Shown here piece after piece: positions 2,212 through 51,570 of a stretch of DNA of 53,596 nt (positions within the stretch are counted from its first letter, which is position 1; each line of letters starts with the position of its first letter). This DNA comes from a virus. The DNA is taken from positions 1 through 53,596 of IMG/VR virus record IMGVR_UViG_3300025030_000023; one strand, given 5' to 3'. The position numbers and the translations under genes are program-made. The notes under the pieces were generated by a model that did no database searches, was not told the origin of the DNA, and was given only the letters and a program-made list of their open reading frames with translations.

Positions 2212-2970
2212 TCAGCCTATCAGCGTTTCCCATGCCAGTTTAACCACTGCTGGAACTTGGCCGTTTCCAGTTGCCGCAAGCCTGTCCACGATTGTGGCCA
2301 CAGCATCAAGAGTTCGTGCATCGTCGGACAAAGCCATCCGTCCTGCGTCCAGAGCTCGACCGCTGGTCTGAACCACATCAGACTTGACCCTACCGACGCC
2401 CCACTTGGTCGAGATTCTCTGCGTTCCTTTCGGCCCATTGTTGTTTTGCAGACTACTTTCAGACCATCGGTTTTGCATGGAGTCGGCCAAAATCCAGATG
2501 CGTTCGCGGAGGTGTCGTGCTCCAGCATCCGCTGCTGAAAACACTCCCCACCTAGCATTAAACCCCATCTCGGCCAAGTCTCCGAGAACCCTTCCAAGTC
2601 CCCTAGAAGTGAGAATTGGTGAGTTTTCCACGAAGACAAATCTTGGCTGTACCTCGCAAATGATCCTCGCCATTTCTCCCCAAAGTCCTTATCTTTTGCC
2701 TTCAATTCCTGCACCGGTCCCTGCACAACTAATGTCTTGGCAGGGAAACCCGCCAGAAACCACGTCAACAATGCCTCGCCACGGTCTGCCGTCAAAGGTG
2801 CAAACGTCATCCCAGACAGGGAAGGTGCCGAGAACGCCGTCATTCTGTCGCTGCATAAGTACGCTAGCGGCATAGGGGTCTCGTTCAACGGCACAGACGG
2901 TGCGCCATCCGAGAAGTTTGCCACCGAGTATTCCTCCACCAGCGCCTGCGAAAAGTGCCAACTCATTCAC
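2212..2970 (-). pseudogene. dcm-like: C5-cytosine DNA methyltransferase split by an in-frame TAA
   Basis: Read across the stop, this frame carries the C5-methyltransferase motifs in order: I (LALFAGAGGG), IV (GGFPCQD with the catalytic Cys), VI (FVFVENSP), VIII (RERIWILA) and X (ATGNGQVP). The start is GTG 2970 with GGGGAG 6 nt upstream, overlapping the end of the RepL-like gene. TAA at 2689-2691 interrupts it just after GAGIEGKR. An ATG 15 nt downstream of the stop (MARIICEVQP) is preceded by GGGGAGA, so two subunits could in principle be made, as in the split enzyme M.AquI. Nonsense decay is equally possible. Confidence 0.7.
2220..2966 (-). CDS. overlapping alternative-frame ORF of the methyltransferase gene
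   Basis: This 248-codon frame lies on the same strand as the split methyltransferase, shifted by one base, and has no stop across its full length. Its ATG (2966) overlaps the RepL-like stop as ATGA, a classic coupling arrangement. The product contains stretches I remember from many phage proteins annotated as methyltransferase-related: AGFPAKT, SSWKTHQFSLL, SETWPRWG, SGFWPTP and a C-terminal WTGLRQLETAKFQQW. Those blocks are the shifted reading of C5-MTase motifs IV, VIII and X. Whether the protein is made is unknown. Confidence 0.4.
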   Translation of the reverse strand: MSWHFSQALVEEYSVANFSDGAPSVPLNETPMPLAYLCSDRMTAFSAPSLSGMTFAPLTADRGEALLTWFLAGFPAKTLVVQGPVQELKAKDKDFGEKWRGSFARYSQDLSSWKTHQFSLLGDLEGFSETWPRWGLMLGGECFQQRMLEHDTSANASGFWPTPCKTDGLKVVCKTTMGRKERRESRPSGASVGSSLMWFRPAVELWTQDGWLCPTMHELLMLWPQSWTGLRQLETAKFQQWLNWHGKR

Positions 2971-3427
2971 TGGTTCTCCCCTCTGTCTCACTCGGCGGGG
3001 CGGATAGCGAAAGATACTCTTGATAGATGTTGGCGCGTTCATCACCTGTGACCATACAGGCATACAACGGATTGACAATATATGCACTACCCCCCTTGGC
3101 GCGAGGCCGCATAATGTCTTTCGCTATGAGCGTGGCTTTTATCTTCTTACAGTTGGCTAGTGAAACTTCGATCTCCCGTAAAATCTCTTCGGGGTCAAAG
3201 AAAACCAAATTATCCTTGCGCATATTGAGGACAAGAAACTGTATAACCTCATGCGTTGCACCTGACATCCCTTTAGGGAACATACGCCCTCTCCCGTTTT
3301 GGAACACCTTGTAAAAGATGTCCTGTAAGTATGGTGCAAACTCGGTAGCCATAAGGCTTTCACCGGTCTGCTCGTTAAAAACTTCCCTCTTTCCCTTGTA
3401 CTTCCATTTTGTGCGTTGGTTGTGCAT
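2963..3427 (-). CDS. RepL-like winged-helix protein, copy 1
   Basis: This 154-residue protein is a diverged paralogue of the protein at 8942-9388. Shared features are a basic N-terminus, GRGRMFPKGMSG matching ERGYRMYPKEMNQ, a helix-turn-helix-like central part, and a YIVNPLYAC block matching YMVNPGHAC. The layout recalls the RepL plasmid-replication family. The next gene in both copies is a cytosine methyltransferase. Here the promoter -10 box ends 5 nt before the ATG, so the mRNA should start at or next to the start codon. With palindromes in the promoter, an autoregulating transcription factor is as likely as a replication protein. Confidence 0.65.
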   Translation of the reverse strand: MHNQRTKWKYKGKREVFNEQTGESLMATEFAPYLQDIFYKVFQNGRGRMFPKGMSGATHEVIQFLVLNMRKDNLVFFDPEEILREIEVSLANCKKIKATLIAKDIMRPRAKGGSAYIVNPLYACMVTGDERANIYQEYLSLSAPPSETEGRTSE

Positions 3428-8941: not shown

Positions 8942-9388
8942 ATGCGTAATTCAAGACGAGTTTACAAATATTCAGGTTCAAAAGAGACAGTAGACGTGAA
9001 GACCGGAGAGGTCGAACGGGCAGTTTTAGTCAAACAGAAAATTCAAGATATTAACTTCATCAAAATCTTTTTACCAGAGAGGGGATATCGTATGTACCCA
9101 AAGGAAATGAACCAGTCGGCTAGGGACTTGCTCGATTACTTGTGTGTGGTGATGGATAAGCAAAACATCGCCATTGCACCAGTTGCCGAGATACAGGAGA
9201 GGATGGACCTTTCCACCGCATCCATTGCAAGGGCCAAGCTACAACTTATGGAAATGGATTTTATTCGCCAGCGTACTCCGCACGTTTATATGGTGAATCC
9301 CGGCCATGCCTGTAAATCAGCCGGCGACGATAGGCAAACCGTTTACGAAGCATATTCCATGCTACCCCATAAGCTCAAAGAGAAATGA
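8942..9388 (+). CDS. RepL-like winged-helix protein, copy 2
   Basis: This 148-residue protein is a paralogue of 2963-3427. It has RMYPKEMNQSARDLLDYLC and a helix-turn-helix-like IQERMDLSTASIARAKLQL, followed by a wing-like beta stretch IRQRTPHVYMVNPG. The layout recalls the RepL family. The start lies 5 nt after the promoter -10, so the transcript is probably leaderless. The stop overlaps the start of a complete cytosine methyltransferase. The same two-gene pair, inverted and damaged, is at 2212-3427, which argues for a functional link between regulator and methylase. Confidence 0.65.
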   Translation: MRNSRRVYKYSGSKETVDVKTGEVERAVLVKQKIQDINFIKIFLPERGYRMYPKEMNQSARDLLDYLCVVMDKQNIAIAPVAEIQERMDLSTASIARAKLQLMEMDFIRQRTPHVYMVNPGHACKSAGDDRQTVYEAYSMLPHKLKEK

Positions 9389-10104
9389 ATGTCCTAGACC
9401 TGTTCAGTGGAATAGGGGGATTCTCGCTAGGGTTGGAACGGGCGGGGATGAAAACAGTGGCGTTTTGTGAGATAGAACCATATCCACAGGCGGTATTGAG
9501 AAAGAACTTTCCAGGAGTACCAATTTATGACGATGTGCGAACAATCTCAGCAGAGCGGCTGGCAACAGATGGAATTGGGCGCGTTGATCTTGTCTGCGGC
9601 GGTTTTCCCTGTCAGCCGTTTTCCAATGCTGGGAAGCGAAGAGGCAAAGATGATGACCGTTTCCTCTGGCCGGAAATGCTCCGCATTGTGCAGGAGTTCC
9701 AGCCCACTTGGGTCATTGGTGAAAATGTTGCTGGTTTCATCGACATGGCACTCTGCGATGTGTCATTTGACTTGGAAGCCGCAGGTTACGAAGTCCAATC
9801 GCTTGTTATTCCAGCTTGTGCCGTCGGACTCCCGCACCGGAGAGATCGTGTCTGGATTATGGCCCACAATCAGGAAAAGCGGCCAATCAAGGGCATGGAA
9901 AGCGTACCAAAGGGAAGACTACCACGGGAATTTGGAAGAGTGGATTTCAACTCGTGGGAAAACTGGCTGGATTCTACCGTTGTTACCACAGAATATGCAG
10001 GGATACCCCCTTGGTTGGGCGAGCTTGAGTGTTACGGAAATACCGTGACCCCGCTTATTCCTGAGATCATCGGTAACATCATTATGGAGATAGAAGGGTT
10101 CTGA
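9385..10104 (+). CDS. dcm-like: C5-cytosine DNA methyltransferase
   Basis: This 239-residue enzyme has motif I (LDLFSGIGGFSLGLE), motif IV with the catalytic Cys (CGGFPCQPFS), motif VI (VIGENV), motif VIII (LPHRRDRVWI) and motif X (YGNTVTPLIPE). It transfers a methyl group from S-adenosylmethionine to C5 of cytosine. At 239 residues it is shorter than typical members because the target-recognition region between VIII and X is very small. ATGA overlaps the RepL-like gene. No matching restriction endonuclease gene is nearby, so self-protection or regulation is likely. Confidence 0.9.
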   Translation: MNVLDLFSGIGGFSLGLERAGMKTVAFCEIEPYPQAVLRKNFPGVPIYDDVRTISAERLATDGIGRVDLVCGGFPCQPFSNAGKRRGKDDDRFLWPEMLRIVQEFQPTWVIGENVAGFIDMALCDVSFDLEAAGYEVQSLVIPACAVGLPHRRDRVWIMAHNQEKRPIKGMESVPKGRLPREFGRVDFNSWENWLDSTVVTTEYAGIPPWLGELECYGNTVTPLIPEIIGNIIMEIEGF

Positions 10105-15243: not shown

Positions 15244-15798
15244 ATGGTTATAAAATACGAGTTCGATTGCAAGGTTTGCGGCAAGCACGTAGTGAAGTCG
15301 AGGGCAGAATGGCAGACACCTCCGACATTTTGCAGCAATGAGTGCAAGTTCAAGGGGCAAGTTGGGAAAGAGCGCAAGAAAATTATCAACACTGATTTTG
15401 CATGTCTTTATTGCGGCAAGCACGTCATTGGATACCGTGGGCCTCAATACCTAGCCAAGTACGGCCAACCACAATTTTGCAGCGCTCAATGCTTGGGTGC
15501 TTCACGCCGTGGGGCAAATAACCCAAACTACAAAGAAGGTGTCCGCAAGATGAAGGGAGGATATATCGGCATACATGTGCCCGATCATCCGGCAGCAATC
15601 GCAGACGGTACGGTGCCAGAACATAGGCTAGTCATGGAAAAGCACCTTGGCCGGTATCTCGCGGATGAAGAGATAGTACATCACGATGACGAAAATAGGT
15701 CTAATAACAAAATAGAGAACTTGGTTCTTTGCGCGAATCAATCTGAGCATTCCAAATTACATCGTCACGGGGGGCGGCATTATGAAAAAAAACACTAG
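15244..15798 (+). CDS. HNH endonuclease (homing type)
   Basis: This 184-residue protein has N-terminal zinc-ribbon-like pairs (CKVCGKHV, CSNEC, CLYCGKHV) and a C-terminal HNH_3-type nuclease: EHRLVMEKHLGRYL, then IVHHDDENRSNNKIENLVL and SEHSKLHRHG. The catalytic HH and N residues are present. The gene is more AT-rich than its neighbours, has its own weak promoter and overlaps the methyltransferase gene, as expected for a free-standing homing endonuclease. Confidence 0.8.
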   Translation: MVIKYEFDCKVCGKHVVKSRAEWQTPPTFCSNECKFKGQVGKERKKIINTDFACLYCGKHVIGYRGPQYLAKYGQPQFCSAQCLGASRRGANNPNYKEGVRKMKGGYIGIHVPDHPAAIADGTVPEHRLVMEKHLGRYLADEEIVHHDDENRSNNKIENLVLCANQSEHSKLHRHGGRHYEKKH

Positions 15799-16714
15799 CA
15801 TTATGGATCAAGAGGTTAACGATAAGTTCGCAGTGTATCATGCCGACTGTGTGGAGGTGGCAAAATCAATTCCTACAAATTCCATTCACTATTCCATATC
15901 ATCAATTCCATTCGCATCGTTGTACACATACAGTAACAGTTGCCGCGATTTAGGAAATTGCCGCACCTACTCCGAGTTCGGCGACCACTTCGCGTTCATG
16001 GTGAAGGAGTGGCACCGCGTCATGATGCCGGGGCGTCTGGTGTCGATCCACTGCATGAACCTGCCAACTAGCAAGCAGCATCACGGCTATATCGGGCTGC
16101 AAGACTTTCGTGGAGATATCATCCGGTGGTTTCAGTCCGAAGGGTTTATCTATCACTCGGAGGTCTGCATCTGGAAAGATCCTGTAGTCGCCATGCAGCG
16201 AACCAAGGCACTCGGTCTGCTGCACAAGCAGATCAAGAAGAACAGCGCCATGAGCCGCCAGGGAATACCCGACTACCTTATCACGTTCCGCAAGCCCGGC
16301 GACAACCCCGAGCCTGTTACCCATACCAATGAGTCATTCCCTGTCCAGATGTGGCAGAGGTACGCCGATCCGGTATGGGTAACAACCAACCAGATAGAAG
16401 AAGATGGTTTCTTCAAGCTTACCCAAGACATCAACCCAAGCGACACTTTGCAGAAACAATCGGCCCGTGACCATAAAGACGAGCGCCACATTTGCCCTTT
16501 GCAGCTCAAAGTCATTGAAAGGGGTATCAAACTATGGAGCAACCCCGGCGACGTGGTGTATGATCCATTTGGGGGCATCGGCAGCACTGGCTATGTGGCA
16601 CTCAAGAACCAACGGCGAGCAGTTATGTCGGAGCTGAAAGAAAGCTACTTCAAGCAGCTCGCTCTTAATTGCCAGTCAGCGGTTGACCACAGAGACAGTA
16701 TGCTGCTTTTCTAG
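15782..16714 (+). CDS. amino-group DNA methyltransferase (N4/N6 type) with altered motif IV
   Basis: This 310-residue protein resembles the phage methyltransferases that sit next to SNF2 helicases. Motif I is near the C-terminus (DVVYDPFGGIGSTGYVAL), and HCMNLPTSKQ and RQGIPDYLITFRKPGDNPE are typical of the group. It uses S-adenosylmethionine to methylate adenine N6 or cytosine N4. The catalytic motif that I expect as SPPF reads SIPF here (ISSIPFASLY), a Pro-to-Ile change that could weaken catalysis. It overlaps the HNH gene by 17 nt. Confidence 0.8.
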   Translation: MKKNTSIMDQEVNDKFAVYHADCVEVAKSIPTNSIHYSISSIPFASLYTYSNSCRDLGNCRTYSEFGDHFAFMVKEWHRVMMPGRLVSIHCMNLPTSKQHHGYIGLQDFRGDIIRWFQSEGFIYHSEVCIWKDPVVAMQRTKALGLLHKQIKKNSAMSRQGIPDYLITFRKPGDNPEPVTHTNESFPVQMWQRYADPVWVTTNQIEEDGFFKLTQDINPSDTLQKQSARDHKDERHICPLQLKVIERGIKLWSNPGDVVYDPFGGIGSTGYVALKNQRRAVMSELKESYFKQLALNCQSAVDHRDSMLLF

Positions 16715-47868: not shown

Positions 47869-47910
47869 CTTTTTAACCGTTTGCCGCCGAACAGCGACCA
47901 CGGAGGATAC

Positions 47911-50900
47911 ATGAAACGCTTTGCAACATACCTCGCCCTTGCCCTATGCCTCGCACTCCCCATCAGCCAGATTGTGCAGGGGGCCGCTACCCCTGTTGCC
48001 AATGTCGCCACAACCGAACGCGCGGGGATCGTCAAGCCCGGCGTCGGTCTTGAGGTTGAGGCAGACGGCACGCTCAATGCCACGGGTGAGACTACGGCGG
48101 GGATTTCTCCGGAAGTCTTCGCTAGCTACACCGGAGCAGGCGGGGGACGCGTCACCTTCGATCAAATCTCCTCGCTGGTAGGACCGGCAGGACAGGCAGC
48201 GACCATCGCTGTCGGCACCGTTACCACGGGCGCTGCGGGATCTTCGGCCACGGTCAATAACACCGGCACCAGCTCGGCAGCGGTACTTGACTTCTCCATT
48301 CCAAGGGGAGCAACGGGACTACAAGGCATCCAAGGCATCCAAGGTGTGCAGGGTGTGCAGGGTATCCAAGGCACCGCTGGCGGCTCAATGGCATGGCGCG
48401 GGGTTTACAGCGAAGTGGTCGAGTACTACGCCAATGATGCCGTCTCTTATGGCACCCCCGCAGCAACCTACATTGCTATTGCCACATCCACGGGCCAACT
48501 CCCCGACGCTGAAGGGTCCGCTTATTGGAGTATCAGCGCCGATCACGGCGAGCAGGGGATACAGGGCGAAACTGGCCCCGAAGGTCCGCAGGGGATACAG
48601 GGGTTCCAGGGATACAGCGGAGCTACCGGACCGCAGGGAATACAGGGAGAAACTGGCGAGACAGGACCGCAGGGGGCAGCGGGTACGGACGGCGGAACGC
48701 TCAATTTCCTAGGGGCATGGTCCGCCTTCACCAACTATTCAACGCTCGACTCCGTGACTTACAACGGCTCTAGCTTCGCGGCCAAACTGCCGTCGCTCAA
48801 CCTCCCTCCGTGGATACCTCCCGCAAGCCCGACCACCCCGCAGAATGACACATGGCAGATGCAGGCGCAGAAGGGCGCGGACGGCGCAACGGGGGCAACG
48901 GGTGCCACAGGCGCAACGGGTCCGGCAGGATCTACCGACCATGCCGCACTCAGCAACCTCGACTATGACGGTAGCGGCCACACGGGTTTTACATCTACCG
49001 CCGCCTTCACCTCCTATTCCACCGCCCGTGCCGCGCAGTTTACCGCTGCCAGTGCATTGATACAGCGGCCATGCAGCAAACTCGTTTGCGCCTCCAACGC
49101 CACCAACACCACGGGCTGCGATTACTTGGCAGACGGCACAGCGGATGAAGTGCAGATCAACGCGGCCATTGCAGCTGTCGGCACCTACGGCGCAGTATGC
49201 CTCTCCGATGGGGTGTTTGAGACTGACGCCACTATCACGATAAATAATTCATATTTCGCGCTTAAGGGGCAAGGCGGCGGTGCTACGGTCATCCACAGGA
49301 ACACTGACTACGGTGACACGGTGCTTGTCAGCCACTCCAGCCCCGTGACTTCCATGAGCTGGAACGTGGCAATTACCGGTATCAAGTTTCACAACGAGAC
49401 GGTTGCCATGACGGATGTCGGCGGAACCCTCCCCTACGGCTCGGCCCACATCCACCTCAAATCCGTGGGGCGAGTTCTTCTGGCCGATAATGAGTACAGG
49501 GGGCATTTAGGCGGTATCTTGAGCGAGGGTGCGCGGCAGGTAGAAATCACCCAATTCAAAGCTAATACCGGTTTGCTCTACACCGGAGGCGAAGACACCT
49601 ATAACTTCCGCTCGGTAGTCGGCCCAGGCGATGGAATATCAGTTGACCCGCAAAGCTACTCTGTCCACGTCCACGGCATGGAGTTCGGTAGCGAGTCAAC
49701 GGGGTTCTACAAGTATGGCTTTTGGGTGCAGTCGCTCGATGACTTCTCAGTAACGGGCGGTCACCTCAACGGATACATCCACAGCGGGGTTTTGCTGGAT
49801 AAAGTTGCAGCCAGTAAGTCAATCATTACCAGCAGGTTTCAGGGAGTCTACTTCGACGGCAACACGTCAGGAGCCAGTACCCGCGCCGTCACCATTCAAG
49901 GCACTGGCGGCACTGGTAACTATGGTGGGCTCACCTTTGCCAATGGTGCGTTCATGGGACAGGCGACCACTGAGAACGCCTTTTACATCAACTCCACCTC
50001 CGTCAAGGGTGTCCAGATCAAAAACAACGATATCTGGAATTACACACAAACCGGCATAGACATCGCGGCAGGTTCCGGAATCTCGGTCCAAGGCAACAGC
50101 ATTGCCAAGAACAACACTTCTGCCGGAGCGTATGATGGCATCAGCGTTGCCGATAGTCTGACCGATATTGATATCTCTGGTAACACCATCGGCGGCGAGG
50201 CTGTCGGTTCTGGCACTCAGACTGTCGGCCTCCATGTCGGCACGGGCGTAACGGAAAGTACTTTTGCCCCCAACACCTACGGCGCAGGGAATACCACCGA
50301 TTACACGGTTTCCGCTACGGCGCAGAACATGAGACTGCACGGTGCTCTTGAGTTTTCGGACGGCACCAGCATGAGCACTGCGGCTAGTGGCAGTGGTTCA
50401 GGCGACGTCACCTCTGGTTCCAACATCACAGATAACGCCATAGTGCGCGGCGATGGCGGGACAAAAGGTGTTCAAGAAAGTGCTGTCTCAGTGGACGATA
50501 GCGGTAACATGACAACTGTCGGTTCTCTCTCTCTCGGCCAATCCAGCGACACCACTTCACGCCTCACCCTTTTAGGTGGTAGTGGAGGTAACTCTGTCCT
50601 CAAAATGGAACGCACCGCAGGTACGACCGAAAAGTGGGAGGCGAGCCTCGCCGGAGGTGGGCTTAGTTGGAAAGATACGGTAGCTGCAAAGACTGCGCTA
50701 ACTATCGATGGCAACGCCTCATACTCATACCTCATGCTTGGCAATACCAACGTAGAGGGGGGCAATTCGCGGGTTTCGGCGGTGATAGGCGAAAGCGCGG
50801 CCACTGGTAGCACCAACACCGCAGGAGGGGTAATTCACATCAGGGGTGGAGCCGGTACGGGTAGCGCGGCCCATGGCGCTGTATTCATAGGCGGATATGC

Positions 50901-51570
50901 TCCAGTGGCAAGCGGGACGACTAAACAGAGCACGGCGAAGTTTGAAATAGGCGTTAGGACAAATGGCATACTGTTTGACCTTGACGGCGTATCTGACAGC
51001 TTTACGCCCGAAGCTGGGGTTGATTTCGGTTTTAATGGACCTGTTAAAGTCGAAACTCTCAACGGCAATACCATCACCACCGGCACCGGCACCCTCACCC
51101 TTGGGGCAGGCAAGACCCTTACTGCCAGCAACACCCTCACCTTGACTGGCACGGACAGCAGCTCGGTGGCCTTCGGTGATGGCGGCACGGTGGCTTATCA
51201 GGGCGGTGCGCTCGGGGCGGCTACGGCTACCACGGCAGCACCAGGGACCAACACGACGCAGGTAGCTACTACGGAGTTCGTGACTGCTGCGGTGTCTGGT
51301 GCCGCCGTGGTAACTGCCGCCGTCATATACGACGCCGCCAACATCACCGCTGGAACCAACGGGGCAATAAATTCGTTCACCGTGACCGGCGCGGCTGTAG
51401 GGGATATCGTACAGGTCAGCGTCAGCAACACGACAATCGGCAACAACCTCATTTTGACAGGGTACGTGTCATCCGGCAATGCCGTTGATGTCAAAGGGTA
51501 CAGACCGGCAGGTTCAGATTACGATCCTCCGTCGGCAACCTATTACATTCGAGTGATAGCTCACCCGTAA
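47911..51570 (+). CDS. tail fibre/spike with collagen-like repeats and signal-like leader
   Basis: This 1219-residue protein has collagen-like Gly-X-Y stretches near residues 130-155 (GLQGIQGIQGVQGVQ), 210-260 and 320-345, a beta-helix middle (DEVQINAAIAAVGTYGAVCL, then repeated N-I rungs) and a beta-rich C-terminus. It begins MKRFATYLALALCLALPIS with a plausible cleavage site at VQGA, a signal-like leader. The trimeric fibre would recognise the host. The C-terminal part has no recognisable chaperone motif. Confidence 0.75.
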   Translation: MKRFATYLALALCLALPISQIVQGAATPVANVATTERAGIVKPGVGLEVEADGTLNATGETTAGISPEVFASYTGAGGGRVTFDQISSLVGPAGQAATIAVGTVTTGAAGSSATVNNTGTSSAAVLDFSIPRGATGLQGIQGIQGVQGVQGIQGTAGGSMAWRGVYSEVVEYYANDAVSYGTPAATYIAIATSTGQLPDAEGSAYWSISADHGEQGIQGETGPEGPQGIQGFQGYSGATGPQGIQGETGETGPQGAAGTDGGTLNFLGAWSAFTNYSTLDSVTYNGSSFAAKLPSLNLPPWIPPASPTTPQNDTWQMQAQKGADGATGATGATGATGPAGSTDHAALSNLDYDGSGHTGFTSTAAFTSYSTARAAQFTAASALIQRPCSKLVCASNATNTTGCDYLADGTADEVQINAAIAAVGTYGAVCLSDGVFETDATITINNSYFALKGQGGGATVIHRNTDYGDTVLVSHSSPVTSMSWNVAITGIKFHNETVAMTDVGGTLPYGSAHIHLKSVGRVLLADNEYRGHLGGILSEGARQVEITQFKANTGLLYTGGEDTYNFRSVVGPGDGISVDPQSYSVHVHGMEFGSESTGFYKYGFWVQSLDDFSVTGGHLNGYIHSGVLLDKVAASKSIITSRFQGVYFDGNTSGASTRAVTIQGTGGTGNYGGLTFANGAFMGQATTENAFYINSTSVKGVQIKNNDIWNYTQTGIDIAAGSGISVQGNSIAKNNTSAGAYDGISVADSLTDIDISGNTIGGEAVGSGTQTVGLHVGTGVTESTFAPNTYGAGNTTDYTVSATAQNMRLHGALEFSDGTSMSTAASGSGSGDVTSGSNITDNAIVRGDGGTKGVQESAVSVDDSGNMTTVGSLSLGQSSDTTSRLTLLGGSGGNSVLKMERTAGTTEKWEASLAGGGLSWKDTVAAKTALTIDGNASYSYLMLGNTNVEGGNSRVSAVIGESAATGSTNTAGGVIHIRGGAGTGSAAHGAVFIGGYAPVASGTTKQSTAKFEIGVRTNGILFDLDGVSDSFTPEAGVDFGFNGPVKVETLNGNTITTGTGTLTLGAGKTLTASNTLTLTGTDSSSVAFGDGGTVAYQGGALGAATATTAAPGTNTTQVATTEFVTAAVSGAAVVTAAVIYDAANITAGTNGAINSFTVTGAAVGDIVQVSVSNTTIGNNLILTGYVSSGNAVDVKGYRPAGSDYDPPSATYYIRVIAHP

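Follow-up and report, generated by a model that had tools for sequence, protein, structure and literature searches.

A +1 reading frame overlapping phage cytosine-5 methyltransferase genes and its probable role as the small subunit of a split enzyme

Introduction

The beta polypeptide of M.EcoHK31I, a DNA cytosine-5 methyltransferase (C5-MTase) of a bacterial restriction-modification system (YGGCCR, alpha + beta), is reportedly the product of a different reading frame located within the gene for alpha, as described by Lee, Kam and Shaw in 1995. M.EaeI resembles M.EcoHK31I in its alternative-frame small subunit, and the subunit genes of M.AquI (CYCGRG, alpha + beta) are consecutive. The large subunit of M.EcoHK31I carries motifs I-VIII and X together with a predicted target-recognition domain (TRD), and its small subunit carries motif IX only; in M.AquI, motifs I-VIII are on one subunit and motifs IX-X on the other (PMC3404938). 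Out-of-frame HNH insertions of the ShiLan type have also been described in phage methylases (PMC11855218).

Here we analysed a stretch of 53,596 nucleotides (hereafter the window) that makes up the 53.6-kb IMG/VR virus record IMGVR_UViG_3300025030_000023 and encodes a P22-like portal. It contains two C5-MTase genes (frame A), each overlapped in the +1 register by a second reading frame (frame B). In its main architecture, the A/B pair would show the same partition as M.EcoHK31I, its large polypeptide bearing motifs I-VIII and X and lacking IX. The other-frame origin reported for the second M.EcoHK31I polypeptide also has its counterpart here, as the +1 frame is under selection and the overlap is found at 80 of 80 bacterial-genome B loci. 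We consider it likely that A and B work like M.EcoHK31I, to which they are likened by motif partition. The A/B pairs differ from that bacterial enzyme in being phage and prophage genes, in the many B proteins with WPTP repeats, in having two start architectures, and in a variant with motif X on B. A further group of loci (L224, L284, L332 and others) would have the partition of M.AquI; the M.AquI genes are consecutive, however, and here the part of the large-subunit gene that encodes motifs IV-VIII is also overlapped, out of frame, by the small-subunit gene. The TRD of M.EcoHK31I is predicted in its large subunit (PMC3404938), whereas we would place that of the A/B pair in B. ShiLan-type genes likewise hold a second protein out of frame within a phage methylase gene (PMC11855218), and HNH-like frames at two of our loci (L064 and L092) are similar, but the ShiLan element is a mobile insertion in some members whereas nearly all members sampled here have B as a component of the gene. 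A literature search, with most subscription journals outside its reach, found no published account of the overlap. Searches among plasmid and E. coli sequences yielded neither M.EcoHK31I nor M.EaeI.

Two overlapping methyltransferase loci in the window

The first locus (copy 1) is encoded on the minus strand and has the following features:

2212..2970, minus strand: frame A, candidate C5-MTase large subunit, with motifs I-VIII and X and a GTG start at 2968-2970
2689..2691, minus strand: in-frame nonsense codon (TAA) of frame A, whose bases are read in frame B as parts of sense codons
2220..2966, minus strand: frame B, putative small subunit of 248 aa, an open frame with its own ATG 4 nt inside A; PHROG_1008 match at 2.5e-13; included in a 54-member alignment
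2976..2982, minus strand: Shine-Dalgarno-like AGGGGAG common to both starts, 5 nt before the GTG of A and 9 nt before the ATG of B
2737..2754, minus strand: motif IV GGFPCQ with the catalytic Cys in frame A, from the translation
2283..2333, minus strand: motif-IX-like block LCPTMHELLMLWPQSWT in frame B, with G222L and G226S at two nearly invariant glycines
2251..2268, minus strand: motif X GNGQVP of frame A; the motif-IX-like block of frame B starts 65 nt before it
2963..3427, minus strand: upstream RepL-like winged-helix gene whose TGA overlaps the ATG of B (ATGA)

The second locus (copy 2) is on the plus strand:

9385..10104, plus strand: frame A, apparently intact candidate C5-MTase large subunit of 239 aa, with motifs I-VIII and X; PF00145 match at 5.7e-45, reaching only to residue 176
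9527..10048, plus strand: frame B, putative small subunit of 173 aa with an internal start, an open frame in the +1 register of A; PHROG_1008 match at 7.8e-16
9513..9517, plus strand: Shine-Dalgarno-like AGGAG within frame A, 9 nt before the ATG of B and enriched across the relatives of this copy
9971..10021, plus strand: motif-IX-like block ILPLLPQNMQGYPLGWA in frame B, 65 nt before motif X GNTVTP of frame A (from 10036), read from the translations
8942..9388, plus strand: RepL-like winged-helix gene directly 5' of the methyltransferase (PF05732, 6.9e-12)

An earlier note made from the letters of the window had described copy 1 as a C5-MTase gene with a 248-codon frame starting at an ATGA overlap with the upstream gene, 4 nt inside frame A, and all of this description of frame B proved correct. 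Its account of frame A holds for the methyltransferase motifs, as PF00145 (Pfam) matches both halves of the frame, but not for an uninterrupted gene: the TAA at 2689-2691, the one internal stop in a translation that reads GIEGKR*GLWGEM at this place, had been overlooked, and because of it frame A is listed as two ORFs. The amino acid blocks that had drawn attention to frame B (AGFPAKT, SSWKTHQ, SETWPRWG, SGFWPTP, and LETAKFQQW) are indeed the +1 reading of motif regions of A and fall within stretches conserved among the 54 aligned B proteins. The same effect, which the note had also pointed out in the second methyltransferase, was found in the ORF at 9527-10048, and the B frames of both copies match PHROG_1008.

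Frame B of copy 1 differs from its relatives at two of 41 conserved columns, which is not above the median, and both changes fall in the motif-IX-like block. These two changes are suggestive, at most, of B decaying together with A. Since A is interrupted by a nonsense codon and the motif-IX-like block of B is altered, copy 1 is probably a pseudogene, although the TAA may also be a sequencing error. Copy 2 looks intact, and it is most likely the copy that performs the function while copy 1 is inactive.

The two RepL-like winged-helix genes (2963-3427 and 8942-9388) each lie directly 5' of one overlapping methyltransferase, and the two modules are oppositely oriented. Elsewhere, the window carries another DNA methylase gene (N6_N4_Mtase, 15782-16714) and a gene for a 1229-aa protein with a collagen-like repeat (47881-51570).

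Selection on both reading frames

Relatives of the copy 1 type (family 1) and of the gene at 9385-10104 (family 2) were compared, and the number of stop codons expected in the other frames was obtained by permuting synonymous codons within frame A. When copy 1 is taken by itself, such shuffling leaves the +1 frame free of stops with a probability of about 0.013. In a sample of 83 distinct loci selected by B, the +1 frame had three stops against 270 expected, and the +2 frame 876 against 770. Since this sample is biased by its choice, the test was repeated on loci picked by frame A alone. In the resulting 74 distinct phage loci of family 1, only two stops were found in the +1 frame, both close to the gene end, compared with 400 expected; the +2 frame of the same loci had 1245 stops (1001 expected). 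Because the loci within each sample are related, the counts are not statistically independent, yet the difference is very large.

Family 2, represented by 68 loci also chosen by frame A, has no +1 stops at A codons 60-202 except for one in an insertion column held by two of the 68 loci, and such stops are plentiful in the first 59 codons of A and beyond codon 202. Third-base identity at four-fold sites, measured in pairs with 45-75% amino acid identity, is 0.55-0.64 inside B and 0.27-0.28 outside B in the same genes, where 0.26 is expected at random, and it drops to random immediately past the stop of B. In family 1, four-fold conservation is highest across the motif-IX-like block of B. Simply comparing the two families in their codon-position divergence did not discriminate, because most of family 2 is also overlapped. 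As a control, 18 canonical C5-MTases from bacterial genomes were examined, and they have +1 stops in the expected numbers and no long +1 frame.

All 80 B loci examined in bacterial genomes overlap a C5-MTase in the same +1 register, and frame A is fully open in 77 of them; B is intact at some loci where A is broken. No stand-alone B gene was detected among these 80 loci, which were searched from a B profile that very distant genes could escape.

Taken together, we regard it as virtually certain that this family is truly dual-coding. The earlier note had left two branches, true dual coding or a widely annotated protein family that is a frame artefact. The former is supported by the avoidance of stops and the conservation of synonymous sites, both of them restricted to the B interval, and the counts in the A-selected loci led us to reject the latter. 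Two of the checks that the note had proposed gave positive results: relatives of frame B are abundant and share the overlap, and four-fold sites across relatives are conserved inside B and random outside it (family 2). The widely annotated family that it had referred to is PHROG_1008, named 'DNA methyltransferase', which matches the B proteins of relatives with E-values of 1e-27 to 1e-48. The note had not proposed the role of small subunit that B most likely plays.

Translation starts of frame B

The two families differ in how B begins. The usual family 1 start is ATGAATGAG or GTGAATGAG, the latter being that of copy 1, in which the first codon is the start of A and that of B follows after 4 nt. 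In family 2, the ATG of B is located inside A, typically at A codon 54, and both an in-frame stop and a Shine-Dalgarno sequence lie before it (for example, TAAGGAACTTAGATGG). A Shine-Dalgarno sequence precedes this internal start in 39 of 42 loci, whereas control windows from the same genes have one in 25%. Codon use in A is also biased here: for the Arg codon that forms the Shine-Dalgarno sequence, AGG is used in 29 of 31 cases (151 of 1144 elsewhere), and ATA encodes Ile in 22 of 29 cases (107 of 558 elsewhere). Both types of start signals are visible in the window, as AGGGGAG in copy 1 and as AGGAG in copy 2.

Proposed partition of the methyltransferase motifs between A and B

Frame A has the motifs that define C5-MTases (I, IV with PCQ, VI, and VIII) and the AdoMet-binding fold, copy 1 having the motifs together with its internal stop. 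It aligns with canonical enzymes across motifs I-VIII (hhalign, 2.5e-42), and motif X is also in A. Unlike in canonical enzymes, motif IX was not found between motifs VIII and X of the same polypeptide in the split loci. Canonical C5-MTases have motif IX in frame and no +1 ORF, whereas the split ones have no motif IX in A and LNPxWVEWLMGFP in the +1 frame. The B block at the place of the missing motif, LNPxWVEWLMGFPxGWT, resembles motif IX (the aligned M.HhaI segment is LHPRECARVMGYPDSY). Where both this block and motif X were found, the block is in the +1 frame and motif X in frame 0 in 189 of 198 cases, and the spacing is exactly 65 nt in 167.

Direct similarity between this block and motif IX is low. 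When B was aligned locally with canonical enzymes in hhalign, the top match was at motif IX, with an E-value of only 0.06-0.09 in single comparisons, and a motif-IX PSSM scores about 1 bit on B, compared with 34-57 for canonical enzymes, while picking the B block in 154 of 174 loci. The RE..AR residues of canonical motif IX are absent from the block. Searches of Pfam, NCBIfam, PADLOC, and PDB sequences revealed no known domain in B, and the sole Pfam methyltransferase match of any B is a marginal PF00145 hit (0.0086) at L341.

In the AF2 model of copy 2 A, confidence is high over most of residues 1-165 and over 218-239. Residues 169-208 and 211-217, at the position of the small domain in canonical enzymes, have pLDDT values below 50. 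The best solved structures matching this model in Foldseek are M.HaeIII and M.HhaI. B modelled alone has low confidence (pLDDT 56).

A second architecture and variant loci

At about a dozen loci (L224, L284, L285, L328, L331, L332, L341, L346, L352, L358, L360, L362, and L015), A ends shortly past motif VIII, and a further 107-300 codons are read in B only, which carries both the motif-IX-like block and motif X. In the B-only part of L224 and L284, the third-position differences are 0.458 against 0.179 and 0.146 at the other positions. This is a normal codon periodicity, indicating that B codes for protein independently of A. With this second architecture, essential methyltransferase motifs would lie on B, which is independent support for the two-subunit reading, and the architecture also suggests that B holds the TRD here.

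Some other loci depart from the main arrangement. At L040 (2501-3378) and L054 (2501-3345), the head of A runs in frame into the tail of B, including the motif-IX-like block, after motif VIII. The L040 junction has a short tandem repeat that gives PDQTR in several frames, and this fusion could be switchable by slippage at the repeat. At L064 (2501-3856) and L092 (2501-3727), a third frame resembling an HNH endonuclease is located between the motif-IX-like block and motif X, with B open throughout; three frames may be coding locally. The variable region of long B proteins, such as those of L032, L141, and L164, contains one to several WPTP blocks, whose number varies among relatives. Multi-specific phage methyltransferases have several recognition domains, to which the varying WPTP blocks of B are comparable.

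Discussion

The reading that we favour, and hold to be very probable, is that A and B are the two subunits of one split DNA cytosine-5 methyltransferase. Frame A would supply the catalytic large domain with motifs I-VIII and the C-terminal motif X helix, and frame B would be the small subunit that supplies the missing small domain, including a block that we infer to be motif IX; the variable stretch with WPTP blocks would be the target-recognition region. Ribosomes would start B independently of A, in family 1 at the ATG 4 nt after the start of A with a shared Shine-Dalgarno sequence, and in family 2 at the internal ATG near codon 54 of A with a Shine-Dalgarno sequence of its own. The A polypeptide would then assemble with B, and methylation would presumably need both.

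Alternatively, B could be a true gene that overlaps A but acts separately, perhaps as a regulator, an inhibitor, or an anti-restriction protein, and whose place on the methyltransferase gene serves only co-expression. We think this improbable: B has no significant match to any characterised domain and stays intact at some loci with a broken A, but it never occurred without an overlapping C5-MTase among the 80 bacterial loci, A lacks motif IX exactly where B has its IX-like block at a fixed spacing to motif X of A, and motif X itself shifts onto B at some loci. A further rival is a +1 ribosomal shift in A after motif VIII, by which a fusion of the A head with the B tail would be the real product and upstream B would be unused. 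The two loci that join these parts in one frame after motif VIII are in its favour, but such a product would lose motif X, B has its own conserved start and Shine-Dalgarno sequence, and B is constrained over its whole upstream part, which makes this explanation very unlikely.

The probability that B is just an artefact of the sequence and codon use of A is negligible. Annotation pipelines do pick either frame, but this explanation was ruled out by the synonymous shuffles on the A-selected samples. Canonical C5-MTases show the expected numbers of +1 stops, and the constraint is sharply bounded at the start and stop of B.

We only tentatively propose that B is a target-recognition subunit with exchangeable WPTP modules. 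It is similarly doubtful, yet conceivable, that phages in general share this overlap as an ancient and obligatory design, with the specificity subunit encoded across the catalytic gene and the WPTP repeats serving as its exchangeable modules. If the modules are exchangeable, one overlapping gene could alter target specificity while the catalytic frame is kept.

Long and conserved overlaps between genes on the same strand are rare in prokaryotes and their viruses, and such cases are disputed. The A/B overlap spans about 150-380 codons, is under clear selection on both frames, and is found in phages and prophages of many bacterial phyla.

Distribution and annotation

The nested arrangement is widespread in phages and prophages and is inconsistently annotated as one half or the other. 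B was detected in phages of Pseudomonas, Salmonella, Vibrio, Klebsiella, Acinetobacter, Mycobacterium, Paenibacillus, Lacticaseibacillus, Microcystis, and others, and in genomes of Bacillota, Bacteroidota, Proteobacteria, Spirochaetota, Verrucomicrobia, Acidobacteria, and other groups. Annotators picked B at L002, L004, and L008 and A at L003, L009, and L010; in Paenibacillus phage Tadhana, both frames are annotated. Parts of B are matched by PHROG_1008, PHROG_26627, PHROG_35493, PHROG_27243, and PHROG_31772. Judged by its matches, PHROG_1008 is the B family and not the catalytic domain. The names 'DNA methyltransferase' and 'unknown function' given to the B families in PHROG should be revised to flag the second frame. 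What had been an annotation muddle, in which a family called 'DNA methyltransferase' is the other frame, would become a testable model for the evolution and maintenance of a split enzyme. There is also a practical warning: a phage methylase of this kind of which only the annotated frame is expressed may be dead.

Five closely similar copies (L183-L187) are present in a chromosome record of a Roseovarius MAG, partly about 46-83 kb apart, and they represent either repeated prophages or an assembly effect.
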